A stretch of DNA of 21,830 nucleotides, from positions 1 through 21,830 of IMG/VR virus record IMGVR_UViG_3300040959_000023; one strand, given 5' to 3'. Positions within the stretch are counted from its first letter, which is position 1. Each line of letters opens with the position of its first letter. Made by a program: the position numbers and the translations under genes. The notes beneath the pieces are model-generated. The model saw nothing but the letters and a program-made list of their open reading frames with translations, did not search any database and was not told the DNA's origin. Source of the stretch: a virus. Shown piece by piece: positions 935 through 20,765 of the stretch.

Positions 935-2161
935 ATGATGGAGCTAGCACTTATCAGGACTCTTATGAACAAAGAGTTCCACGAAGATCACAAAGGCATC
1001 CGTTGCCCCGATAAAATCTTCACTAAGGATGTGCGTAAGATCAAGCAGACGCTGGATTACGCCATTGACACATACCAGAAAGACCTCACCCCTTCTGAAC
1101 TTGAGGCGCTGTTCTTTGCTAACAACAGCAGCATGACTACTGCGAACAAGCAGGCCTACAAAGACCTCTTCCGTAAGATTCAGCGTGAGCAACCTATGTC
1201 TGCTGACATTGCTGAAGATGTATTGTCTAAGATGTTTCAGCAGGTGGTAGGCGAAGAGATTGCTAACCTAGGCTTCAACTACGTGAACGGCACTGAGGCT
1301 ACTCTTGAGCCTCTACGTAAGTTGCTGTCGGACTATCAAGATGACTTCATGCCCAACCTCAAGGTAGACTGGGATGACATCAGCATTGACACTCTGCTGA
1401 AGGCTAATGACATTCAGTCTCAGTGGAAGTGGAACATCCCTTCGCTACAACGTAGGGTGGAGGGTATCTCTGGCGGTCACTTGGTTATCGTGGGTGCACG
1501 ACCTAACACAGGCAAGACCAGCTTCCATGCTAGCACACTGGCAGGCCCTGATGGCTTTGCTCAGCAGGGTGCCAAGTGCATGATCCTGTGTAACGAAGAA
1601 GCGTATGAGCGTGTTGGTGCACGGTATCTCAGTGCTGCTACCAGTATGGGCATGGATGAAGTGAAGGGAAACTATGTACTGGCTGCTAGTCGCTATGCTG
1701 CTGTGAAGGATAACATCTTCATCAAGGACAGCACAGGCAAGGATATGGCATGGGTAGAGGCTATCGTGAAAGCATACGAGCCTGACGTTGTTGTCTTGGA
1801 TATGGGCGATAAGTTTGCTGCACGTACAAGTGACAAGTCTGATGTGTACCTCAAGGATGCAGCTATCCATGCACGTAACATCGCTAAGCAGTACAAGTGT
1901 GCTATCATCTGGATGTCACAGTTGTCTGCCGTAGCTGAAGGTGTGGTACGTGTGGATCAGTCTATGCTTGAAGGTAGTAAGACAGGCAAGGCAGCAGAGG
2001 CTGACCTTATGATCCTCATCTCTAAGAACAGACCTGTTGAGGGACAGGAAGAAGAAGACACCCAGCGCCACTTGAACATTGCTAAGAACAAGCTTAAAGG
2101 TGGGTATCATGGGGTGATACATTGTGAGTTGGATGGTGAACGCAGCCAATACACATCTTGA
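935..2161 (+). CDS. DnaB-type replicative DNA helicase
   Basis: Hexameric, ATP-driven helicase expected to unwind DNA at the phage fork. The N-terminal half (about residues 1-165) is helical and unlike a known primase: I see no TOPRIM acidic motif and no zinc-binding cysteine set. The C-terminal half is a RecA-like core. Walker A is GARPNTGKTS at 187-196, a Walker B-like VVVLDMGD at 285-292, a DnaB/T7 gp4-type motif SQL at 328-330, and a basic segment near 384-390 where an arginine or lysine finger is usual. At 408 residues it is a helicase without a fused primase, so priming must come from elsewhere. The ATG at 935 has only a modest GAGG site 10 bases away; a second ATG follows at 938. The stop lies 12 bases before the polymerase ATG. 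Confidence 0.88.
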   Translation: MMELALIRTLMNKEFHEDHKGIRCPDKIFTKDVRKIKQTLDYAIDTYQKDLTPSELEALFFANNSSMTTANKQAYKDLFRKIQREQPMSADIAEDVLSKMFQQVVGEEIANLGFNYVNGTEATLEPLRKLLSDYQDDFMPNLKVDWDDISIDTLLKANDIQSQWKWNIPSLQRRVEGISGGHLVIVGARPNTGKTSFHASTLAGPDGFAQQGAKCMILCNEEAYERVGARYLSAATSMGMDEVKGNYVLAASRYAAVKDNIFIKDSTGKDMAWVEAIVKAYEPDVVVLDMGDKFAARTSDKSDVYLKDAAIHARNIAKQYKCAIIWMSQLSAVAEGVVRVDQSMLEGSKTGKAAEADLMILISKNRPVEGQEEEDTQRHLNIAKNKLKGGYHGVIHCELDGERSQYTS

Positions 2162-2172
2162 GGGGAGAGAAC

Positions 2173-4221
2173 ATGAGGCTTACGCTTGACGTTGAGAACA
2201 CAGTGACGAAGCGCAACGGAAAGATGCATCTTGATCCGTATGAGCCTAGCAATACTCTCGTGCAGGTGGGTACGCAGAACGTAGACAACCGTGATGAGAC
2301 TAACATCTTTACGTTTGACCACAAAGAGAAGCAGGATGTTGGTGGCATTCAGCGTAAGAAGTTGCAGATCATCTTAGACAACACAACTTTGCTGATCGGA
2401 CACAACCTCCAGCATGACTTGGCCTGGCTCTGGGAGTGCGGCTTCGTGTATGACGGTGATGTTTATGACACCATGCTTGCTGAGTACCTGCTCCTTCGTG
2501 GGCAGAAAGAACCGCTTAGCCTAGATGCCTGTGCTGAGCGCCGTGGCTTGGAGTATCAGAAGGATGATACGCTCAAGCGTTACTTCAAGGAAGGATACAA
2601 CACCAATGAGATACCTCTATCGGACCTCAGTCACTATCTTCGCTGTGACCTTGATGTCACTAGCAGCCTGTTCCTCGCAACCGAGAATGATTACGCTCAG
2701 CCCGGAGCCGACTCCCTCGCGCGAGTTAAGCGAGTCACCTTCGAGACCTGCAAGTTGCTCACGCGAATGTACATGCGAGGAGTCAGGGTGGATCGAAAGG
2801 CGCTTGGACTAGTACGTGAAGAGTTTGAACAAGAACGTGCTGACATCCTGCAACGCCTGTCCACGAAGACACGTGAGTTGATGGGTGCTACCCCTATCAA
2901 TCTCAATTCTCCTGAGCAGGTTTCGCAGGTCGTGTTCTCTCGGCGTGTTAACAACAAGAAAGAGTGGGCCAACCTGTTTGACTACGTGTTCAGTGACACA
3001 GAGTTCAAGGATGCAGTCAACTCCAACAGCACTGTCATCATGAAGACTCGTGCCGCCACCTGCCCTGAGTGCAAGGGTGAAGGCAAAGTGTACAAGCTGA
3101 AGAAGGATGGCACACGCTACGCTAGGCCCAACAAATGTACTAACTGCGATGCGCGTGGGTATCTGCTACACCAGACTAAAGAGGTGGCAGGCCTGATGTT
3201 CTCTGCCCCTAGCAAGAAGTGGGTCAGCGCCAATGGCTTCAGCACAAGTAAGGACAACCTAGATACGCTCATGGCTACTGCTAAGACGCGAGGCATGGAG
3301 CAGGCTGTGTCTTTCCTTGGTGACCTGAAACGCCTGTCTGCTGTGTCTAGCTACCTGTCTAGCTTTGTGGATGGCATTGACACTTACACTAAACCTGACG
3401 ACATGCTTCACGTCTCCCTGACGCAGCACATCACAGCCACAGGTCGCTTCTCTGGGCGTAACCCTAACATGCAGAACATGCCGCGTGGTGGTACGTTCCC
3501 TGTGAAGCGTGTGTTTGTATCTCGCTGGGACGGAGGCAACATCATGGAAGCTGACTTCGCTCAGCTAGAGTTCCGTGTTGCTGCATTCCTGAGCCAGGAT
3601 AAGGTAGCTATGGAAGAGATTGCTACTGGCTTCGATGTGCACAGTTACACGGCACAGGTTATCTCTGATGCAGGTCAGCCTACGTCACGACAAGAGGCTA
3701 AGGCACACACGTTTGCACCTTTGTTTGGTGCTACAGGTTACGGCAGGTCCAAGGCAGAAGCATCATACTACGAACACTTCACTGAGAAGTACAAGGGTAT
3801 CGCTAAGTGGCACAAGAAGCTAGGAGATGAAGCTGTGCGTCTGCTGAAGATTACGAATGTCTCTGGTAGGCAGTACGCTTTCCCTGATGTAACACGCAGG
3901 TCTAACGGGAGTGTAACGCACTTCACCATGATCAAGAATTACCCTGTGCAGGGCTTTGCTACAGGCGATGTTGTACCTGTTGTGCTTATTGAAATGGAGA
4001 AGCGCCTGAGCAACATGCAATCCTGCCTTGTGAATACAGTGCACGACAGTATGGTGATTGACGTGCATCCTGATGAGACACAACAGGTTATTCAGACAGT
4101 GCACGATATGAACGAGGGACTGAATGACTTGATTGAACAGTACTACGATGTTAAGATGAACGTACCTCTGCTGCTTGAAGCTAAGCTGGGTCCGAATTGG
4201 CTTGACACCAAAGACGTGTAA
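2173..4221 (+). CDS. Family A DNA polymerase with 3'-5' exonuclease and DnaJ-like zinc finger
   Basis: Replicative DNA polymerase of the Pol I/T7 type (682 aa). I take ATG 2173, with AGGGGAG 5 bases upstream, over an in-frame TTG at 2158. The exonuclease domain has ExoI D6-V-E8, ExoII N78/D82 and ExoIII Y155xxxD159. The polymerase domain has motif A DFAQLEFR (D461), motif B with K510 and FGxxGYG-type O-helix residues, and motif C HDS (D625). All catalytic residues are present. Between the domains lies an insertion with CPECKGEG (297-304) and CTNCDARG (322-329), two halves of a DnaJ-type zinc-binding module. The residue aligned with E. coli Phe762 is F514. There is no 5'-3' exonuclease domain. 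The gene follows the helicase closely and precedes the ssDNA-binding candidate and exonuclease, matching a T7-style fork plus end-processing set. Confidence 0.93.
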   Translation: MRLTLDVENTVTKRNGKMHLDPYEPSNTLVQVGTQNVDNRDETNIFTFDHKEKQDVGGIQRKKLQIILDNTTLLIGHNLQHDLAWLWECGFVYDGDVYDTMLAEYLLLRGQKEPLSLDACAERRGLEYQKDDTLKRYFKEGYNTNEIPLSDLSHYLRCDLDVTSSLFLATENDYAQPGADSLARVKRVTFETCKLLTRMYMRGVRVDRKALGLVREEFEQERADILQRLSTKTRELMGATPINLNSPEQVSQVVFSRRVNNKKEWANLFDYVFSDTEFKDAVNSNSTVIMKTRAATCPECKGEGKVYKLKKDGTRYARPNKCTNCDARGYLLHQTKEVAGLMFSAPSKKWVSANGFSTSKDNLDTLMATAKTRGMEQAVSFLGDLKRLSAVSSYLSSFVDGIDTYTKPDDMLHVSLTQHITATGRFSGRNPNMQNMPRGGTFPVKRVFVSRWDGGNIMEADFAQLEFRVAAFLSQDKVAMEEIATGFDVHSYTAQVISDAGQPTSRQEAKAHTFAPLFGATGYGRSKAEASYYEHFTEKYKGIAKWHKKLGDEAVRLLKITNVSGRQYAFPDVTRRSNGSVTHFTMIKNYPVQGFATGDVVPVVLIEMEKRLSNMQSCLVNTVHDSMVIDVHPDETQQVIQTVHDMNEGLNDLIEQYYDVKMNVPLLLEAKLGPNWLDTKDV

Positions 4222-11832: not shown

Positions 11833-14800
11833 TTAATCAAGACCTCTTCGATACGTGTCTTGTAAGTAGTCTACCAAGTCCATAAAATCCTGTAGTTCAG
11901 GAATAGTCATATCACTTATGCCTGCATCTACTCCCCTATCCCGCAGAGACTGCATCGCTATATTTCTGAGAGCCTCATTGCCCATTGTGTTAGCGCGTCT
12001 ACGCATAGCAGCAAGTCTGCTCTCTGGATCAGTAGAGTAGTCCTGCATATACTGTCTCACCATAGACCTTGCAGCCCTTAGTGTCTCACGCAGCATAACA
12101 CGGCGCTCATCAGAGTTGCCTTCAACGAAACGTCTGTCTCTTGTAAGGCGCTCCATTCTAGCTTCAAGGTGAGGGGCAATCAGGGTGTTGAAGATTCTGT
12201 CGTACTCAGGAACACTTGTGCGTTCACTTGCAGTCCACTCAGCCATGTTAGCCATAGAGTAAGCCTGCTCTGTCTCAGTACGTGCAGGTCTGATTGTCAA
12301 ACCAAAGATGCGGGCCAGGGGGTTAGGATCAACAACATCGCCTTGCCGTGTAGCAACACGAAGTTCTTCACCTGTCACTGCTTCAACACGACCGAAGAGT
12401 CTCTCAAAGATGTTGTCTACGTAGCGGGTCGATGCCTGGCTGAACAGTTGAGTACCAGAAGCTTGCCGCAGGTCACGTGCAGCATCTGTGTCATCAATGT
12501 ATCCAACCAGTCTGTTGACTGCATCAAGAGGACGCGTGAAGCCTGCAGTAATGTTACCCGCTGCCCTGAATACTGCATCAAAGGTTGATCTTCTGTCGCC
12601 TTCATTGAAGTTAAGAATTGAGTCTGTAATGTTGATAAGATCATTACCAAACTGAACATCGCTAGCAAACTGACCGACACCGATTTGTGTGCCAAGTTCT
12701 GTGATAAGTTCAGGACCAACAGTTTCACCTTGCGATACAAGGTTGGCAACTCTACCAGAAATAAGGAAAGCAGAGAAGGGGAATGTGTTTCTGGCATCGA
12801 TGATAGAACCGCCAGCACCCTGCACTTCATTCCATGCAAGACCCTGCTCTTGGCGTTCTCTGTCGTACACCATAGCCGCGCCCAGCGCAGAAGTACCCAC
12901 GATAGCCCTAGCCGTAGATTCAAGTAGGGCTACCTGATTACCTTTCTGTGCAAGCTCCCCTGTCCCTCTCATGCTTCTATAGACTGCTCCGATAGGCGTA
13001 GCCAAGCCTGCAGGAGACCACTGATAAGCAAAAGCAACAGTGTTATTAAGGAACCTACCAAAAGGAAGCACTGTACCAATCACAGGAATATTAGAGAAAC
13101 TCTCAATAAAACGTGCTACTTGGCCAAGAAGCTGGTCATCACCCGTATAGTCCTTAGAGAACACAGACTTCATGGTTGTGTCTAGGGTAGCACCCATGAC
13201 ATTATCATCAATCAGTCTAAGATCGCCTGACTCCAGAACATCCAGCAGGTCTCTATCATGAATGAGCCTCATGTTCTTATCAAGCTCAGTCATGAACATC
13301 TGAGACTTAGTGAAGGTGTCCTGAATACGTACACCAGTAAGCCTGTTAGCACCTTCAGTTACAGCTTCAGTAACCTTGAACCAAGCTGCCTCAGGATCAA
13401 TATTAAACCTGTCAGCCTGTCTCTCAACGCCACCTGTGAAGGTCTCAAGCAGCGCTCTCCTTGCGTCCTTGTTCTCTTCAAGGATAGCCATGTAGGCATC
13501 GTGCGTAGTGTATGGGTCAAGGAAGTTACGCATCTTCTGTGCTTGGATTTGCCTGTAGACACGACCCATACGTAGAAGCTCGTCTGCCCGTCTTGCAGAG
13601 AACGGCCTGGTTGCAACACTGAGCATACCCAATGTGCCAGAGTTAAATAGGTCTGCTACAGACTGACCAACATAGTATTGTCCAAAGCCACTGATGTTAG
13701 CCATAGTGGTAGCAGGAGACGACACAAGAAGTCTACGCCACACGGACTGCCCATAGCCTGCTAGCCTCATACGCTTCTGCTCTGCCTGTGCAGCCCTCTG
13801 AGCAGCTTGTGAGGCGTTGATACCTTGCATAACATTGCTGCCATGCACAACACCACCGTCCAGCGTCTTGCGCAACTGAGACATAACATTCAGGGTTCGC
13901 GCACTCTGGTTAATGTCCTTGGCAAGGAGGTCTTGCAGCCTGGTACGCATAGAGGTGAGATCACCAATGTTAATACCAGTAGCACGGTTCAGCTTTGTGT
14001 TGATGTCACGAAGTGTGCTGTCAGGAAGCTGTGCCACGAAGTCTGTCATGAGGTCTGATACCGTCATGTTTCGCGGGAGTCTGACACCTAGCGATTGCAG
14101 AATGCCTGCAACACCTTCGCCACTGCCAGGCCCACCCGGACCAAACACAATCTCATGCAACAAGTCAACAGGTGTCACATCAGGATCAAAGTCCTGCCTA
14201 CCACGTGCAACTTTGTTCTGCCAACTGTCAATGCCTTTAGACACAGCATTAGCGAGGGTGGTGACGTTAGTGCGTGTAAGTGCTGTATCTTCGATAGCCT
14301 GCTGTGCTGCTCTCATGGTGCCTAGTTCAACAAGCTGACCTGTTTCTTCTAGCCCAGAGATACCAGCAGCCTGCCTACCAAGAAGCTGGAAGCCGCCACC
14401 AACAAGACCAAACAATGCACCGAATGCAGTCTGTGTTCTGCTGTACTCTTCCTGTACACCCACTTCCATCATGACGTTCTGGATTTGGTGTTCTTGCAGT
14501 GCAGCAAAAGTACCATCCAAGGCAGTAGTACCATAGAGAGATGCACGTGCTGCAGTCTGTCTACGCCCTGCCATGAAGGCCATCTCAGACTCACCAGCAA
14601 TACGCCGCAGGAAGATGTCTCTTTCAGCACGACCAATACGAGATGCTGCCTGACGCCTTGCCTGTTGAGGTACACCACGCTGCAGCATACGAGTAGCTGC
14701 CTGTGCTGCTGCTGTACTTGCTGCTCTGTCCGCTGCTGCTTGAGTAGCGCCACCACGGATAGCCCTAAGGCCAGCCTGTCTTGTAGCAGCTTGAATAGCC

Positions 14801-15339
14801 TGACGACCTGCAGCAGTAACACCACCAGCAGCCACCCTCGCAGTACCGCCAGTGAGAAGACCTATGTAGTTCGTGGGGTCTGTAGCTGCAGCAAACACAT
14901 AGTCGCCAATACCTTCAACGGCACCAAAGAAGCCATCGTTAGCAAAGACACTGCCCAGCGAGTCATAAAGTTCGTAGGCTTGTGCAGCAGCTTGACGATC
15001 TTCTTCAGAGCCATTGCTGATGAAGCGCACTTCACCTGCAGTAGAGACAGTGTTGGTGTTAAACCAACGCATGTGTTCAACGAAGTCATCCACAAGCTGT
15101 TCAGGGTCAGCGTCATTGTACTGTGTACCATAACGCCGCACCATGTAGTCGCGGATTCTGTTGGAGTTCTCGTAGTCAAGCAGATCGCTTTGAGTGAGAG
15201 GTCCATCAAAGGGTTCTTCTCTTGCAGGTCTCTCAGAGGCAGGCTGCTCTTGTGCTGCTTCAGGTTGAGGGCTTTCAACACCGCCGACAGAGAACCCTGT
15301 ATTGGGCCTCCACTGAAGATCAAAACTCGTGTCTGTCAT
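11833..15339 (-). CDS. Large internal virion / DNA-ejection protein candidate
   Basis: At 1168 residues this is the largest gene in the window and the last of the leftward arm. The N-terminal 45 residues are Pro/Glu-rich and probably disordered. Residues about 165-260 are very rich in Ala, Arg and Gln and predicted helical. GIGDYVFAAATDPTNYIG (143-160) resembles an ATDPxN motif that I associate with large internal proteins of podoviruses. Hydrophobic glycine-rich stretches occur (for example AFGALFGLVGGGFQLLG, 305-321). No lytic transglycosylase motif is evident. Size, composition and place beside the muramidase and two other virion-like proteins suggest an ejection protein like T7 gp15/gp16, delivered into the cell with the DNA. 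ATG 15339 lies 12 bases after the previous stop with a weak AGGG site. Confidence 0.65.
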   Translation of the reverse strand: MTDTSFDLQWRPNTGFSVGGVESPQPEAAQEQPASERPAREEPFDGPLTQSDLLDYENSNRIRDYMVRRYGTQYNDADPEQLVDDFVEHMRWFNTNTVSTAGEVRFISNGSEEDRQAAAQAYELYDSLGSVFANDGFFGAVEGIGDYVFAAATDPTNYIGLLTGGTARVAAGGVTAAGRQAIQAATRQAGLRAIRGGATQAAADRAASTAAAQAATRMLQRGVPQQARRQAASRIGRAERDIFLRRIAGESEMAFMAGRRQTAARASLYGTTALDGTFAALQEHQIQNVMMEVGVQEEYSRTQTAFGALFGLVGGGFQLLGRQAAGISGLEETGQLVELGTMRAAQQAIEDTALTRTNVTTLANAVSKGIDSWQNKVARGRQDFDPDVTPVDLLHEIVFGPGGPGSGEGVAGILQSLGVRLPRNMTVSDLMTDFVAQLPDSTLRDINTKLNRATGINIGDLTSMRTRLQDLLAKDINQSARTLNVMSQLRKTLDGGVVHGSNVMQGINASQAAQRAAQAEQKRMRLAGYGQSVWRRLLVSSPATTMANISGFGQYYVGQSVADLFNSGTLGMLSVATRPFSARRADELLRMGRVYRQIQAQKMRNFLDPYTTHDAYMAILEENKDARRALLETFTGGVERQADRFNIDPEAAWFKVTEAVTEGANRLTGVRIQDTFTKSQMFMTELDKNMRLIHDRDLLDVLESGDLRLIDDNVMGATLDTTMKSVFSKDYTGDDQLLGQVARFIESFSNIPVIGTVLPFGRFLNNTVAFAYQWSPAGLATPIGAVYRSMRGTGELAQKGNQVALLESTARAIVGTSALGAAMVYDRERQEQGLAWNEVQGAGGSIIDARNTFPFSAFLISGRVANLVSQGETVGPELITELGTQIGVGQFASDVQFGNDLINITDSILNFNEGDRRSTFDAVFRAAGNITAGFTRPLDAVNRLVGYIDDTDAARDLRQASGTQLFSQASTRYVDNIFERLFGRVEAVTGEELRVATRQGDVVDPNPLARIFGLTIRPARTETEQAYSMANMAEWTASERTSVPEYDRIFNTLIAPHLEARMERLTRDRRFVEGNSDERRVMLRETLRAARSMVRQYMQDYSTDPESRLAAMRRRANTMGNEALRNIAMQSLRDRGVDAGISDMTIPELQDFMDLVDYLQDTYRRGLD

Positions 15340-15351
15340 TGAGAGATACCC

Positions 15352-16614
15352 TTACTGCTGCTGCAGTGCGTTACGCATTTCTTGGATTAGGAAGGCTCTA
15401 TTTTCAGGGACATCCACATCAGGCACAGTCTCAGCCCATGCATCAATAGCGTCATTGATGGTTTCATCATCCAGCATGTTCACTTGTGCACCCATATACT
15501 GCAGGTACTCGTAAAGAGCAGTAGACGCCTGTACGTTACTCAGGAATGCAGCCTCTGCAGCAGTACCACCACGCTCTACTACAGCTTGTTCAATTTCCTC
15601 TTGCGACAACTCAGGAGTTTCATCTGTAGTGAGCGTAGTCTCTACCGTAGGCTGCTCAATAGTAGTACCGTCCCCAATACCTGCAGCCGCAAGCTCCTCA
15701 GTGCTGATAGTAGGCTCGGCTTGCTCTCGGTATGCTTCCCTGAGACTATCAACATATGCATCGCCAAGAGACTGACGTAGCGTCACTTCGTGAGCAGCAA
15801 TGAAGTCTTCGCCATATCTGCTGGCGTATCCAGCAACAAAAGAGTTTAGAGCATCAGCACGGAAGGCTCTCTCTGCTGCCAGAAGTTCGTCTCCCACCAA
15901 GTCTTCAACAAGCCTATTGTAACCCGGCGAATCTTCCACAGCACGGGATTGCAATTCATACTCACGCAAGAAGTCAGACTGCGTTACGTCATACCTGTCT
16001 GTATCAGCAAATGTCATGAACGTGCCAGGCATGAGAGACTCATAGTTTGCTCTCTGTGCAGCCCTGTTGATCTCTTGGATGGTCATGCCTTCATAGCCCG
16101 GAGTACTAGCAAGGCGTTCTTCTGCACGGGCCATCTGGTCACGACCAGCAAGTCTATCCCAAAGGCTAAACTGCTGTGGTGCACGTTCTTCTGTGGTAGT
16201 GGGTCTTGGGCCAAGGCCATACGTCTGGTTGATGAAGTCTTCCATAGACATATCCAGAGGAGTAAAGCCTTCAGGGATATTCACAAGGGCAGCAACATCA
16301 TCGTCACCAAGCGGTGCACCTCTGTTGGATTGTACAGCAGCCTGTACACGTTCATACAAGGACACAATACTTTCAGGCCCTGCCGAGATAGCTGCTTGGA
16401 TGTATTCATCGCCAACACCCTGCTGAGTCAGGTAGTTGGTGTAGCCTGTGACCTGATCTGCGATAGCACGTCTTCGCGAGATAGTCTGTGCATTACGCTC
16501 AGCAGCCTGTCTTTGTTCTTGCTCAAATTGCTCAGCCTCTTCCCTGCGCTGGGTCTGAATCTCTTCAGTGCGCTCAAGGAAGCCTGTAGCAAAGGACATC
16601 CAATCAAAGCTCAT
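15352..16614 (-). CDS. Probable internal virion protein (420 aa)
   Basis: An acidic 420-residue protein of no recognised family. Residues 12-55 form a likely coiled coil rich in Glu, Gln and Arg. The middle is mainly helical. A Thr/Glu-rich stretch around 300-345 looks like a flexible linker, followed by a helical C-terminal domain ending RNALQQQ. The ATG at 16614 is preceded by AAGGAGG 9 bases upstream, inside the end of the previous gene, so translation is coupled. Its position directly before the 1168-residue protein, in the order medium then large, recalls T7 genes 15 and 16, so an ejection role is a reasonable inference. Confidence 0.6.
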   Translation of the reverse strand: MSFDWMSFATGFLERTEEIQTQRREEAEQFEQEQRQAAERNAQTISRRRAIADQVTGYTNYLTQQGVGDEYIQAAISAGPESIVSLYERVQAAVQSNRGAPLGDDDVAALVNIPEGFTPLDMSMEDFINQTYGLGPRPTTTEERAPQQFSLWDRLAGRDQMARAEERLASTPGYEGMTIQEINRAAQRANYESLMPGTFMTFADTDRYDVTQSDFLREYELQSRAVEDSPGYNRLVEDLVGDELLAAERAFRADALNSFVAGYASRYGEDFIAAHEVTLRQSLGDAYVDSLREAYREQAEPTISTEELAAAGIGDGTTIEQPTVETTLTTDETPELSQEEIEQAVVERGGTAAEAAFLSNVQASTALYEYLQYMGAQVNMLDDETINDAIDAWAETVPDVDVPENRAFLIQEMRNALQQQ

Positions 16615-16615
16615 C

Positions 16616-17221
16616 TTACATGGCCTCCTTTGCCATCAAGCCTCTGGGAGCCATAGGCATTTCATCTTCTTCCTGCATCATGGGTTCATCTGCTTCTGGG
16701 GCAGGCTCCATGTCATCCGTTACTCTGCCACCAGACATAGTTTCAGATACTTCCTGCAGCAGAGCAATGCCGGGGTCTGTATCTGCAGTGCGATCCCCTG
16801 CCTTAGCATCAGCAAGAGCAAGCTGGATAGCTGTCTTCAGCCTACGGTTCTCACGCTCAGTCGGGTCTTTCTCAGGATTGTATGTATCATCCTTGGCTTC
16901 GATCCCGTACTGCAACATGGCTGCTTTGATGAAGGCATGAATCACAGGAGCAACAATAAGACTCACATCAACGGTATGCATCCCCTCAGAGACACCTGTA
17001 GTAAGCAGGGTCTCAACAAAGGGTCCAATAGGCATCCCACCATCAAACAACACAGACAGGTCATCCATGACATCCTGATCTGCAAGCTTGTTGATGTAGT
17101 ACTTAGTCACCTCTTCATAGTCAGCCATCTGAGGAGGTCTCTCCCACTTGTACTGCCTAGGGGTAGAAGTAAGAGACTGGCCAGGGATAGGCCCTTCAAG
17201 GAAGTTCTCAGGTTTGACCAT
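16616..17221 (-). CDS. Conserved virion-type protein of unknown function (201 aa)
   Basis: The N-terminus contains GPIPGQSLTSTPRQYKWERP, a pattern I associate with a protein found in several marine podo- and myoviruses, usually listed as structural or hypothetical. The central part (about 35-110) is hydrophobic and helical with a GMHTVDVSLIVAPVIHAFI segment, probably a folded core rather than a membrane span. The C-terminal 35 residues are Met/Glu/Pro-rich and disordered. The start ATG 17221 has AAGG upstream with 9-base spacing. One base separates its stop from the next ATG. Its constant position among ejection and lysis genes suggests a virion component. Confidence 0.62.
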   Translation of the reverse strand: MVKPENFLEGPIPGQSLTSTPRQYKWERPPQMADYEEVTKYYINKLADQDVMDDLSVLFDGGMPIGPFVETLLTTGVSEGMHTVDVSLIVAPVIHAFIKAAMLQYGIEAKDDTYNPEKDPTERENRRLKTAIQLALADAKAGDRTADTDPGIALLQEVSETMSGGRVTDDMEPAPEADEPMMQEEDEMPMAPRGLMAKEAM

Positions 17222-17232
17222 GTTACTGCGCC

Positions 17233-17676
17233 TTATTTAGTGAAGCCTGCGCCAAAGTAGAGGCCTACGATAGCTGAAACAATGTGTGTATCTAGTGGGG
17301 TAATAACGAAGCCTCGTGCAGTCACCCACTGAATGGCTTCTTGGTCACCGCCAAAGAGGTTCCAGAAACCACCCACAGCTTCAGTGTAGCCTACGTAGAC
17401 TGTAACGTCAGGATACCATACAGCCACCAGCTTAGGCAAGACAATAATTGCAAACACAGAGCCTAGAGCAATAAGCCTACGTGTCCAAGCAAAGTGCTTG
17501 TCTGTCTTGCCTGCATCACGTGCTTCTTTAGCAAAGCCTGCATTGGCATTAGCTCTCTCAAGCAGCATCTTGTTGTTAGCTTCACGAGCCTTGATAGACT
17601 GGCCCCAAATAGACATGACACCACCGAGTACAGTGGAGCCAAGCATTGTGATAAGTTCTAAAGGAAGACCGCCCAT
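17233..17676 (-). CDS. Three-segment membrane protein, holin-like
   Basis: A 147-residue protein with three hydrophobic segments: about 4-25 (LELITMLGSTVLGGVMSIWG), 67-88 (RLIALGSVFAIIVLPKLVAVWY) and 131-145 (HIVSAIVGLYFGAGF). A charged helical stretch rich in Arg, Asn and Lys separates the first two. This layout resembles the 3-TM holin group known from gene transfer agents and alphaproteobacterial phages. It lies directly after the muramidase gene (5-base gap), the usual partner of a holin, so it probably forms the pore that releases the lysin or triggers lysis. Membership in the family is from layout, not alignment. Confidence 0.65.
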   Translation of the reverse strand: MGGLPLELITMLGSTVLGGVMSIWGQSIKAREANNKMLLERANANAGFAKEARDAGKTDKHFAWTRRLIALGSVFAIIVLPKLVAVWYPDVTVYVGYTEAVGGFWNLFGGDQEAIQWVTARGFVITPLDTHIVSAIVGLYFGAGFTK

Positions 17677-17681
17677 GTGTG

Positions 17682-18575
17682 TTAATTCCTAAAGCTTCTA
17701 GCTCTGTTGAGCCAGCCATCCAAGAAGCCTGCCTGCGTATCATCTCTTGCTACAATGCCTCTGTAGAAACGCTCACGTGCATCTGCATACATGTTGTTCG
17801 TAATCTCAGCATTGCTCAGAGCCTCACGTGTGATAGGTCCAAAGGAACCATCATCTGCTACACCAAGCATTCTCTGAAGGATGCGAATAGAGTTGCTGCC
17901 AGAGTTCACTGCCATGTCAAACACGTTAGCCTGCAGTTCCTCAGGAAGCTCATCAATGTGATAACGATAATAGTACTGCTGCAGGAAGATATCACGTGCC
18001 TCTTCTTCAGTGACACCTCGGATATCCTCTACTGTAATACTGTTGGGGCTTACGCCACGATACTCAGCAAGTGCTGCAGGGGTAACCCCTCTGTTGGTGC
18101 CGATCAGTCTATCGCCAACGTAGTTACCTCTGTCGTTCGCCCACTGCTGAAACCCACCCTCTTGTGTGAGGATGTCATCAATCATGGCTTCAATGGTAGG
18201 TGTAGGCCCACCTTCACTGCTACCACCAGAGGTTCTAGTAGGTGCAGGACGCTCAGGGCCTTGCAGAGGGCGCAGGTTCTCCCACACACTCAGGTCAGGC
18301 AGTTCACGAGGCCTACGCTGCGGTACAAGCGACTCAGCTACAGCTTGGGGGTTATCAGAGCTAGCACCAATGTGCCTTGCAATAGCCTCAAGGAAGGAGG
18401 CATCTGAGGGTCTAGGCTCAGGTCTAACATCAGGACGTACAGGCCTAGGAATAGGTCGCATCAAGCCGGAGAACTCAGACGTAATGGCATCGCCTGCCAG
18501 TTCATCACCCTGCAGAAGCGCTTCACGGAAACGCACAGGGTCAATCTCAGCCATAGTTCTGTAGCTACGTGTCAT
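17682..18575 (-). CDS. GH108-type N-acetylmuramidase (endolysin or virion lysozyme)
   Basis: A peptidoglycan hydrolase of 297 residues. The C-terminal half matches glycoside hydrolase family 108: EGGF with the probable catalytic E139, then ANDRGNYVG and IGTNRGVTPAALAEY, followed by a peptidoglycan-binding type 3 segment (FDMAVNSGSNSIRILQRMLGVADDGSFGPITREAL, residues 219-253). The first 120 residues are an unusual extension, Pro/Arg-rich around 40-60 and 85-118, that could tether the enzyme to the virion. The start is ATG 18575 (AGGGT upstream), with ATG 18554 as an alternative. Since the gene lies among virion proteins next to a holin-like gene, it may be the lysis enzyme, an entry enzyme, or both. 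Confidence 0.82.
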   Translation of the reverse strand: MTRSYRTMAEIDPVRFREALLQGDELAGDAITSEFSGLMRPIPRPVRPDVRPEPRPSDASFLEAIARHIGASSDNPQAVAESLVPQRRPRELPDLSVWENLRPLQGPERPAPTRTSGGSSEGGPTPTIEAMIDDILTQEGGFQQWANDRGNYVGDRLIGTNRGVTPAALAEYRGVSPNSITVEDIRGVTEEEARDIFLQQYYYRYHIDELPEELQANVFDMAVNSGSNSIRILQRMLGVADDGSFGPITREALSNAEITNNMYADARERFYRGIVARDDTQAGFLDGWLNRARSFRN

Positions 18576-18591
18576 AGTGTAAAGACCCTGA

Positions 18592-20505
18592 TTAACCGAA
18601 GATGATAGAGGATACAATGGAGCCTGCAGCGCTAGCAAAAGCAGCAGACTTGTTAGCATCAGCAGCACTTGCTTCTGCTTCGTTGGCAAGTTTTTGTACA
18701 GCAATTGTCGTGGCCCTATCTGCGTTGTTGTTCGCAGTCTGAATAGCGTAGCTCATAAGGTCACGCTCACGCTGCCAAATCTGATCAACGTTAGCCATAG
18801 TCAAAGAGTTAAGAGTCTGAGCAAGAAGCATGTTAGCTTCATTCTGTGCAGCAGTGTCCAAGGTAGCAACGTTCTGTCGCCACAGGGTGTTGGCTTGTTC
18901 TACTACAAGGCTATTCTGTGCGTTGAATAGATCACGCTGTTGCAGAAGTTCCGCGTTAAAGGTACGGATAGCATTAGCAGCATCAGCGTTGAACTGCCTA
19001 TTAGCATTCGTCTGTGCTGCATTGAACTGGGATGTCTGACTTGCAAGCCCAGCAAAGAACTGGTTCGTCTGATTCTCACTCTCAGCGTTGATCTGTTGTG
19101 CAGCATTCTGTGCTGCTTGGTCGTTAAAGAGGGCCTGAATGTTCTGCTGAGCCTTAAACATAGATGCTTGCTGCTCATTAGACAGATTAGTCAGGTCCAT
19201 TTGCAGGAAGTTCTGTGCGTTCTGCACTGCTGCCTGCTGTCTGTTATTCAGGTTAGAGATATCCAGTTGCGACAGGGCTGCAGCCTCTGCCATAACAACA
19301 GCCTGACGGTTGGTCAGATTCTCTAGGTTAATCGTGTTGGCTGCACGAGCATTCTCAAGTGCAATCTGCTGCTCAGCCGTGAAGTTCATGTTGGCTGCAT
19401 CAGCGATACGAGACGCATTAGCTACACGTGCCTGGAACGCTTGGTCAAACTCCATGCCCATGAACTGTGCACGTTGTTCTGCAGCAAGCATAGCTCTCTG
19501 CTGACGGTTGCTAAGATTCTGTGCTTCGAACTGTGCTACAGTCTGTGCATCTGCTGCAGCAATCGGGAGTGCGGCTTCCATTGCAGCTTGTACAACAGCC
19601 TGCCCAGCGATACTGGAAGCACCAAGACCACGTGCAGCAAGAGACTGCATAGCTGTGCGCATAGCACCAGAGGCCCACGAAGGAGTGTCACCACCCTCAA
19701 AGTCAGCCATAAGGCTCTCAAGTTGACCCGCTACAGTAGCCTTCTTAGAAGGAGTAGCCTGTGCTGCCTCAATCTGTTCAGTGAAGGATGCTGCCTTAGC
19801 TGCATTAGCTGCTTCAGAGATAAGTTCCCCTGCCTGGATTTCACGCTGAACAGGGTTGTCCATCATGATAGCAGTGCCCTGAGCAGCCTGAACGTTGGCT
19901 ACAGAGGTCTGAGACTGTGTTGCTGCAGTCACCTGCGCTTCAGGCGTTACCTGCCCTGTAGCAGCCTCTACGCCAGCCAGAGCAGCCGATACTTCAGGTG
20001 CAGCAGTAGCAGGTGTCATCTGTGCTGCAGCGCTGGGCGTAACAGGAGCAGCAGTGGCTGTAGTAGTAACTTGTGCAGGAGTAGCAATAGGAGCAGGCTG
20101 AGTGGCTTGACCTGCAGTAGAGGACACAAACTGCTGCGGTGTAGTAGGAATCTGTGCTACTGTAGCAGAAGCAGGTGTCATCGTTTGCATAACGATGTTC
20201 TGCTGTGCCTGTGCAAGGTCTGCTGTAGTAGGATTGACTGTCTGGTCTGTTGCTACAGTAGGGGTAGTGGTCGTAGTAGTGGAAACATCACCACCATCAG
20301 CATAGCCTCTGCGCATCATGAGGCCACCCTTAGCCATAGCTGCAGAGTAACGCTGCATCTTAGCTGCCACAGCAGGGTTAGACCGTCTGAAGTTCTCTAG
20401 AGCCTCACGTGTTCTAGGCCCTGTGTAGCCCAAGAACTTAGAAGCCATTCGGTACATACCGTCAAGCTGTGCGTCCTGCATGGTGTTTTCCATATTGATG
20501 TTCAT
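18592..20505 (-). CDS. Hendecad-repeat Ala/Gln/Asn-rich virion protein (DNA-conduit candidate)
   Basis: A 637-residue protein of four parts. Residues 1-72 are basic (KGGLMMRRGYADGG). Residues 74-205 are a low-complexity Thr/Ala/Pro/Gln linker, including six Thr in a row. Residues 230-590 are a long Ala/Gln/Asn-rich helical region almost without proline. The end, SAAFASAAGSIVSSIIFG, is hydrophobic. The helical region repeats: N-L-x-N-(R/E)-Q type units recur at 330, 374, 396, 418 and 440 (multiples of 22), and F-N-A units at 494, 505, 516 and 527 (11 apart), with F483 and I472 in phase. Eleven-residue periodicity is typical of parallel helical barrels. By place and form this could be an internal or pilot protein that makes a DNA tunnel. 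The start is uncertain: ATGs at 20505, 20493 and 20481 all lack a strong ribosome site. Confidence 0.7.
   Translation of the reverse strand: MNINMENTMQDAQLDGMYRMASKFLGYTGPRTREALENFRRSNPAVAAKMQRYSAAMAKGGLMMRRGYADGGDVSTTTTTTPTVATDQTVNPTTADLAQAQQNIVMQTMTPASATVAQIPTTPQQFVSSTAGQATQPAPIATPAQVTTTATAAPVTPSAAAQMTPATAAPEVSAALAGVEAATGQVTPEAQVTAATQSQTSVANVQAAQGTAIMMDNPVQREIQAGELISEAANAAKAASFTEQIEAAQATPSKKATVAGQLESLMADFEGGDTPSWASGAMRTAMQSLAARGLGASSIAGQAVVQAAMEAALPIAAADAQTVAQFEAQNLSNRQQRAMLAAEQRAQFMGMEFDQAFQARVANASRIADAANMNFTAEQQIALENARAANTINLENLTNRQAVVMAEAAALSQLDISNLNNRQQAAVQNAQNFLQMDLTNLSNEQQASMFKAQQNIQALFNDQAAQNAAQQINAESENQTNQFFAGLASQTSQFNAAQTNANRQFNADAANAIRTFNAELLQQRDLFNAQNSLVVEQANTLWRQNVATLDTAAQNEANMLLAQTLNSLTMANVDQIWQRERDLMSYAIQTANNNADRATTIAVQKLANEAEASAADANKSAAFASAAGSIVSSIIFG
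18916..19518 (-). repeat. Protein-level 22/11-residue helical repeats
   Basis: This part of the 637-residue protein (residues 330-530) repeats at the protein level. Five units of the N-(L/F)-x-x-x-Q-Q type fall at 330, 374, 396, 418 and 440. Units of Q-F-N-A type follow at 471, 482, 493 and 504, with related F-N-A at 516 and 527. The nucleotide sequence is diverged between units, so the repeats are old and selected at protein level. Confidence 0.75.
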
Positions 20506-20507
20506 CT

Positions 20508-20765
20508 TTATTGTCTATCCACATACATCCACACAGCAGTGGCAATGAATACCAGTAACGCTGTGGTAGCAACACGAACAGTTGTAGTCCAGATAGACTT
20601 ACGAGTATCGCGCCAGGCTTCAAGCAAACTACGCATCTCACTAATGTCTTTGTGAGCGGACTCATCTAAGAGACCAATAGAGGCCAACGCTTCCTTAGCG
20701 CCACGTCTAGCAGCACGATCAAGCATGTCCTCAAGTTCTTCGTGAGAGAGTTTTACCTCAGACAT
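20508..20765 (-). CDS. DUF6127-like small membrane protein (85 aa)
   Basis: An 85-residue protein with an N-terminal helical region (LSHEELEDMLDRAARRGAKEALASIGLLDESAHKDISEMRSLLEAWRDTRKS) and one C-terminal transmembrane helix at about 60-81 (TTVRVATTALLVFIATAVWMY). The pattern 'RAA..GA.EAL..IGL....A..DI..MR.LLEAWRD.R' is that of the DUF6127 group found in alphaproteobacterial phages and prophages. Function is unknown; a role in lysis or in anchoring to the inner membrane is possible. The start ATG 20765 lacks a clear ribosome site. The stop is 2 bases before the next ATG. Confidence 0.75.
   Translation of the reverse strand: MSEVKLSHEELEDMLDRAARRGAKEALASIGLLDESAHKDISEMRSLLEAWRDTRKSIWTTTVRVATTALLVFIATAVWMYVDRQ

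Follow-up and report, generated by a model that had tools for sequence, protein, structure and literature searches.

A protein ladder of 11-residue repeats that changes length by whole units in HMO-2011-type phages, and its possible part in genome ejection

The window analyzed here, a stretch of 21,830 nucleotides of the IMG/VR virus record IMGVR_UViG_3300040959_000023, encodes a 637-residue protein, gene A, which contains a long ladder of 11-residue (hendecad) repeats. The periodicity was confirmed, on firmer evidence than the initial annotation had at hand, and comparison of homologs indicates that the ladder is held in register and grows or shrinks by whole hendecads. A register-locked hendecad helix that changes length by whole units only is an uncommon and testable signature. 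The product of gene A quite possibly, with a little less than an even chance, belongs to the genome-ejection module in the virions of HMO-2011-type short-tailed phages, and a DNA-ejection conduit would be a plausible function. The gene and the parts of its product are the following:

18592..20505, minus strand: gene A, the 637-aa hendecad protein (open reading frame; homolog of HMO-2011 phage1322_25 and Vibrio phage CHOED_013)
19891..20283, minus strand: Thr/Ala/Pro/Gln-rich, almost uncharged linker, residues 75-205, of variable length in homologs (composition and homolog lengths)
19564..19740, minus strand: conserved head of the core, residues 256-314 (ATVxGQL..TPxWAxGxMR..AARGLGASS..ALPIA; near-invariant columns)
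18880..19566, minus strand: hendecad ladder between the anchors P314 and W542, 228 residues or about 20.7 hendecads (anchor-distance rule and column asparagine)
19123..19518, minus strand: imperfect 22-residue (2 x 11) repeats, residues 330-461 (lag 22, z=6.1 for residues 330-460)
18886..19122, minus strand: 11-residue repeats with a Phe ladder (QFNA motif), residues 462-540 (lag 11, z=5.3 for residues 460-540)
18595..18651, minus strand: Ala/Gly/Ile-rich, moderately hydrophobic C-terminus, residues 619-637 (Kyte-Doolittle 1.24 over 19 residues)

When residues 320-540 were analyzed by identity autocorrelation, lags 22 (z=6.89), 44 (z=5.60), 11 (z=5.01) and 33 (z=3.55) stood out, all other lags remaining at or below 1.4. 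The repeats had initially been assigned to residues 330-530, which indeed correspond to 18916..19518, and both the motif starts at 330, 374, 396, 418 and 440 and the ladder of F483, F494, F505, F516 and F527, with I472 in phase, were recovered. The passage from a 22-residue into an 11-residue period was likewise found, lag 22 dominating residues 330-460 (30 identities against 11.5 expected) and lag 11 residues 460-540. The 22-residue period had been described as exact; this holds for the register, but the repeat units themselves are imperfect, since the unit starting at 352 has diverged. Tandem Repeats Finder detected no array with a period of 33 or 66 bases in the DNA. A DNA-level tandem array was thus rejected, and the repeat is maintained at the protein level.

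Relatives of gene A were found by tblastn in 26 phage records, every one from an HMO-2011-like phage or a more distant relative, with E values for the named relatives from 2e-165 to about 1e-7. HMO-2011 itself matched at 60.6% identity over 66% of the query. The others include roseophages (CRP-1/2/9/13/207/345/603 and CRP-3/235/738), pelagiphages (HTVC033P/103P/104P/115P, including HTVC103P_gp59), phages of further hosts (Vibrio CHOED, Aeromonas MQM1 and 1233, Pseudoalteromonas Slicky01) and the rhizobial phages phiM6 (phiM6_25) and RHph_N3_13. In addition, 61 IMG/VR loci with relatives came from a first scan and 49 from three further scans. In the named relatives the gene is annotated as "hypothetical protein", phage 1233 being unannotated at the match. 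Window gene A gave no Pfam match and no credible PHROG match. Similarity of the core and the A-(insert)-B-C-D gene order, both of which were observed, place gene A by sequence in the HMO-2011 phage1322_25 family, with which it shares the gene block and the hendecad register.

The phages that carry this family form the HMO-2011-type group, very common short-tailed marine phages (PMC9038755, PMC8528129), in agreement with the short-tailed context proposed initially; HMO-2011 carries a P22-type coat protein. The window also contains (2158..4221, plus strand) a Family A-like DNA polymerase open reading frame with a zinc-finger-like insert, CPECKGEGK...CTNCDARG, which is annotated DnaJ_CXXCXGXG in the HMO-2011 polymerase. 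In the loci L226-L229, phage contigs identical in name and length sit in metagenome-assembled genomes of two phyla (Flavobacteriales TMED123 and Neomarinimicrobiota MED589); these host labels reflect a binning artefact and are not evidence of host.

The hendecad register persists in homologs down to about 24-40% identity. Among 69 non-redundant homologs, lag 22 exceeded z=2 in all 69 (median 7.3) and lag 11 in 99% (median 5.1), lags 7, 10, 12 and 15 being negative. The initial annotation had named loss of the 11-residue register among homologs as an argument against its proposal; the register is retained across them.

The length of the ladder was measured between two flanking anchors, the proline of the PIA motif (P314) and the tryptophan W542, which requires no alignment. 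Among 120 homologs, the P314-W542 distances were 140, 151, 162, 173, 184, 206, 217, 228, 283, 316 and 317 residues. Ten of these 11 distances differ from the 228 of the window by multiples of 11 (-88 to +88), and the distance is congruent modulo 11 in 119 of the 120 homologs, the exception, L089 (317), being off by one. Nine of the ten distinct non-reference lengths are therefore multiples of 11 away, for which p is about 4e-9 if lengths were random; distinct lengths and not sequences were counted, since the homologs are related. Control segments of the same protein do not follow the rule: the lengths of the two terminal parts vary without constraint, and W542 lies 35 from the next tryptophan in 112 of 115 homologs. 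Since the anchor-to-anchor length changes by multiples of 11 and the other segments do not, the register is under selection, and whole hendecads are gained and lost in the family. Both odd and even multiples occur, so that the structural unit is 11 and not 22 residues. A length that changes by whole units only implies that the helix tolerates no interruption and has to keep its phase relative to its partners.

Across homologs the ladders span about 13-29 hendecads, and no heptad signal was seen. Among Pelagibacter phages the ladder measures 162 residues in HTVC033P and 316 in HTVC103P and HTVC115P. Because phages of the same host genus thus differ twofold, there is no simple match between ladder length and host periplasm, and a periplasmic ruler in its simple form was ruled out.

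Of 1351 hendecads taken from the homologs, 71% have Asn at column 9 and 50% have Gln at column 4. Charged residues are concentrated at columns 2 and 6, whereas column 5 almost always holds Ala or a hydrophobic residue. Among the last seven hendecads, 69% carry Phe at column 8. When gene A is plotted on an 11/3 wheel, its charged stripe lies at about 95 degrees and its Gln stripe at about 270 degrees, on opposite sides. Column permutation of the helix faces gave p values of 0.03-0.5; as such tests are weak with only 11 columns, this sidedness is suggestive. The N-proximal hendecads have no single hydrophobic face (first-harmonic amplitude 0.16), whereas the C-proximal ones have a partial face (amplitude 0.45), with a stripe at columns 1, 5 and 8.

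In the AlphaFold2 monomer, computed from 58 sequences, residues 378-566 were predicted as a single helix without breaks, shorter helices lying on either side, at modest confidence (mean pLDDT 65, pTM 0.26, pLDDT mostly 70-80 along the helix). The ladder is thus predicted to be one long, nearly straight alpha-helix and, if it is a single straight helix, would be about 34 nm long in the window. A sequence search against solved structures (PDB) found no relative of gene A, and Foldseek returned only non-significant long-helix matches to the model, one of them being a type I antifreeze protein that itself has 11-residue repeats (E 9.2).

Outside the ladder the family is far more variable, full-length homologs ranging from 460 to 1656 aa. 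The N-terminus is short in the window, whereas many members of the phage1322_25 family have 400-1000 extra N-terminal residues (for example L014:6071-11041 and L005:801-4652) or other C-terminal modules. A motif of the type GG-x-MR-x-GY-x-GG, a putative domain or cleavage motif, occurs in the extended N-termini, twice in some. At the other end, Peptidase_S74 is absent from window gene A (Pfam) and from most homologs and present in four (CRP-3, CRP-235, CRP-738 and L116), and HMO-2011 has a different tail. The CRP-235 homolog (L078:911-3445) has both an N-terminal LysM and a C-terminal Peptidase_S74, which makes it a candidate virion protein joining peptidoglycan binding with a self-cleaving chaperone. 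The CRP-3 homolog matches phrog_6121, "virion structural protein"; as this match runs partly through its S74 domain, it does not count here as proof that the protein is in the virion. A hydrophobic C-terminus had also been put forward. It is moderate in the window (Kyte-Doolittle 1.24, similar to the 1.31 of both P22 gp7 and T7 gp14), but is not conserved among the homologs, whose best C-terminal windows have a median of 0.81.

Gene A lies at the end of a late operon, always upstream of gene B and as a rule also of two large proteins. The minus-strand order in the window is DUF6127 protein, A, GH108 muramidase, 147-aa hydrophobic protein, B, C and D, the genes around A being:

20508..20765, minus strand: 85-aa DUF6127 protein, immediately upstream of A and with a hydrophobic helix at its C-terminus (Pfam PF19622, 4e-24)
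17682..18575, minus strand: GH108 muramidase that also has PG_binding_3 and probably starts at the ATG at 18575 (Pfam GH108 1.2e-19, PG_binding_3 3.7e-13)
17233..17676, minus strand: 147-aa protein, holin-like by position, with a strongly hydrophobic stretch (Kyte-Doolittle 2.47 at residues 68-86; phrog_38283, unknown function)
16616..17221, minus strand: gene B, 201-aa conserved partner downstream of A, with a helical domain (homolog loci and AlphaFold2)
15352..16614, minus strand: gene C, 420-aa fast-evolving protein of the A-B-C-D block (position and size match HMO-2011 phage1322_23 and CHOED_016)
11833..15339, minus strand: gene D, a large protein of 1168 aa that closes the block (only its size and position make it a candidate large ejection protein)

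The late-operon block A-(insert)-B-C-D is kept from roseophages to Vibrio, Aeromonas and rhizobial phages, so that the gene order next to large late proteins, to which the initial annotation had pointed, proved to be a conserved feature of these short-tailed phages. Gene B (about 180 aa in the family) follows A in 107 of the 107 fetched homolog loci where both were readable, and the 26 phage records that contain it are almost identical to those with A. It contains the motif APIPGQSLT..P..PWERPP, and its helical domain was modeled with a pLDDT of about 95-98 for residues 31-110. Gene B matched nothing by HHalign (T7/P22 ejection proteins), PDB sequence search or Foldseek, and its candidacy as a gp14 homolog was dropped for want of support from these searches. 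Gene C gave few BLAST matches. Gene D has 36 complete homologs among the fetched loci, nearly all of 1127-1247 aa, and no HHalign match to T7 or P22 gp16.

The muramidase next to gene A had also been cited. The GH108 gene is present in the window, but its adjacency is not conserved: the slot between A and B holds Hydrolase_2 in CRP-603, LysM with a GH19-like domain in CRP-207 and other, unrelated genes elsewhere. The muramidase is thus not a stable partner of A, and, together with the hydrophobic C-terminus, it lends the conduit weak support. In HTVC115P (L073:3506-3955), an RTX-toxin-type lysine acyltransferase (HlyC, Pfam E 1e-15) directly follows gene A, in the slot where other members have peptidoglycan hydrolases. 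Within the window, the mechanical TTG start of the GH108 frame at 18704 (17682..18704, minus strand; 340 aa) overlaps gene A by 113 bases; the apparent transmembrane segment that it brings is removed by the ATG at 18575, which the sequence favors.

As an ejection protein, gene A would be carried in the virion and released ahead of the DNA together with its partners B, C and D. Several copies would pack their helices side by side, parallel and in register. The resulting rod or open tube, whose length would range from about 21 to 47 nm among the phages, would form part of the passage through the periplasm. The amide-rich face would look onto the DNA, as it does in the tube of phiX174 H, and the variable N-terminus and C-terminal module may fit the protein to components of the envelope, for example peptidoglycan and membrane. 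The periodicity, the modulo-11 lengths, the column pattern, the predicted helix, the late-operon block and the short tail all point to this reading, as do the LysM of CRP-235, the matches of the CRP-3 S74 tail and the fact that H alone among six reference ejection proteins has a lag-11 signal. It is weakened by the lack of kin among known ejection proteins, the modest AlphaFold2 confidence, the unconserved hydrophobic C-terminus, the twofold range of ladder length within Pelagibacter phages, face tests that are no more than suggestive, a search of papers that turned up no virion proteomics, and the S74 domain of some homologs.

This last domain leads to the main alternative, in which gene A encodes a trimeric fibre, or a tail needle, on the outside of the virion, with a right-handed hendecad coiled coil as its shaft, the N-terminus sitting on the tail and a C-terminal module (S74 chaperone or other cap) folding the trimer. 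Peptidase_S74 is best known from trimeric fibres and, ending several relatives, keeps this explanation alive. Furthermore, the single hydrophobic stripe of the C-proximal hendecads, with Phe at column 8, resembles a small coiled coil, variable termini are typical of fibres, and in HMO-2011 gene A directly follows the tail-fibre cluster. However, the S74 tail of the CRP-3 homolog matches annotated DNA ejection/injection proteins of Salmonella phage 7-11-like phages, so that S74 alone does not make gene A a fibre. Conservation is far higher in the ladder than at the termini, the opposite of what is seen in a receptor-binding fibre; the gene is linked to B, C and D and not to fibre genes, and the N-proximal hendecads lack a single hydrophobic face. 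A fibre is rather unlikely on this balance.

The strict genetic linkage to gene B would also suit an internal structural rod, a portal-associated core or spool that organizes DNA or the B, C and D proteins in the head and serves as no conduit. Its model is the long helical DEV gp72, which rings the portal before ejection (PMC10925440); yet gp72 also becomes a channel after ejection, and a registered helix of 21-47 nm in a head of about 70 nm is explained no better by a rod than by a conduit. We consider this clearly unlikely.

Apolipoprotein- and perilipin-type families have 11- and 22-residue periods, and the repeats of gene A are charge-poor with one hydrophobic stripe in the C-proximal part, but an amphipathic helix of that kind, binding or remodeling the host membrane, is highly improbable, since the face analysis gives a single-face lipid-binding helix no support over most of the ladder, the conserved position-specific Asn, Gln and Phe are not required for lipid binding, and the ladder changes length by exact units only.

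To return to genome ejection, the initial annotation had likened gene A to the pilot protein H of phiX174. In the published H tube the helices are of the 11-residue type and 18 of 23 lumen positions are N, Q or R (PMC7354561). Gene A and H are alike in the 11-residue periodicity of a long Gln/Asn-rich helix; in the hendecads of H the charged and amide stripes lie at 147 and 344 degrees, so that in both proteins the amide stripe is roughly opposite the charged one. Over whole proteins, H gave a lag-11 z of 4.1, whereas T7 gp14/15 and P22 gp7/20/16 gave values of at most 1.2. They differ in that H has three hendecads followed by heptads and serves a tailless ssDNA phage, whereas the ladders of gene A have about 13-29 hendecads, show no heptad signal and belong to tailed phages. 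HHalign gave an E value of 0.046 (probability 1.2%) between the two, and an HMM search of phiX174 found no match. As the period is shared and kinship is not detectable, gene A may work like H but is not shown to be H.

The A-B-C-D block resembles the ejection operons of T7 (gp14-15-16), P22 (gp7-20-16) and DEV (gp73-72-71) by position and size only (PMC8954989, PMC10925440). The likeness to T7 and P22 lies in a late-operon block of helical proteins ending in large ones in a short-tailed phage; the HMO-2011 block, however, has four proteins and the T7 and P22 sets three, and T7 gp14/gp15 and P22 gp7/gp20/gp16 lack the 11-residue period. With reference alignments that, for H as well, are shallow and could miss very remote kinship, neither HHalign nor HMM searches found kinship between gene A and these five proteins (HHalign probability 0.1-6.6% for T7 gp14 and P22 gp7), and no match to Pfam P22_gp7 (PF25688) was seen. 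A homology to P22 gp7, raised by a visual likeness at the AARGLGASS...PIA helix-turn-helix, was therefore discarded. In the Schitoviridae phage DEV, the helical virion proteins gp72-gp73 rebuild into a DNA-wide tube (PMC10925440); the operon organization is alike, but gene A gave no sequence match to solved structures and no significant fold match. The likeness to S74-capped trimeric phage fibres concerns only some homologs, those ending in Peptidase_S74.

It is possible, if somewhat doubtful, that these tailed dsDNA phages carry their DNA across the envelope through a hendecad helical tube of about 21-47 nm, which would have evolved independently of the phiX174 H tube and of the T7/P22 channels and be tuned in 11-residue steps. 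If gene A does form a conduit, the principle of phiX174 H would have been put to use a second time, by convergence, in tailed dsDNA phages, with natural length variants of the ladder ready for comparison.
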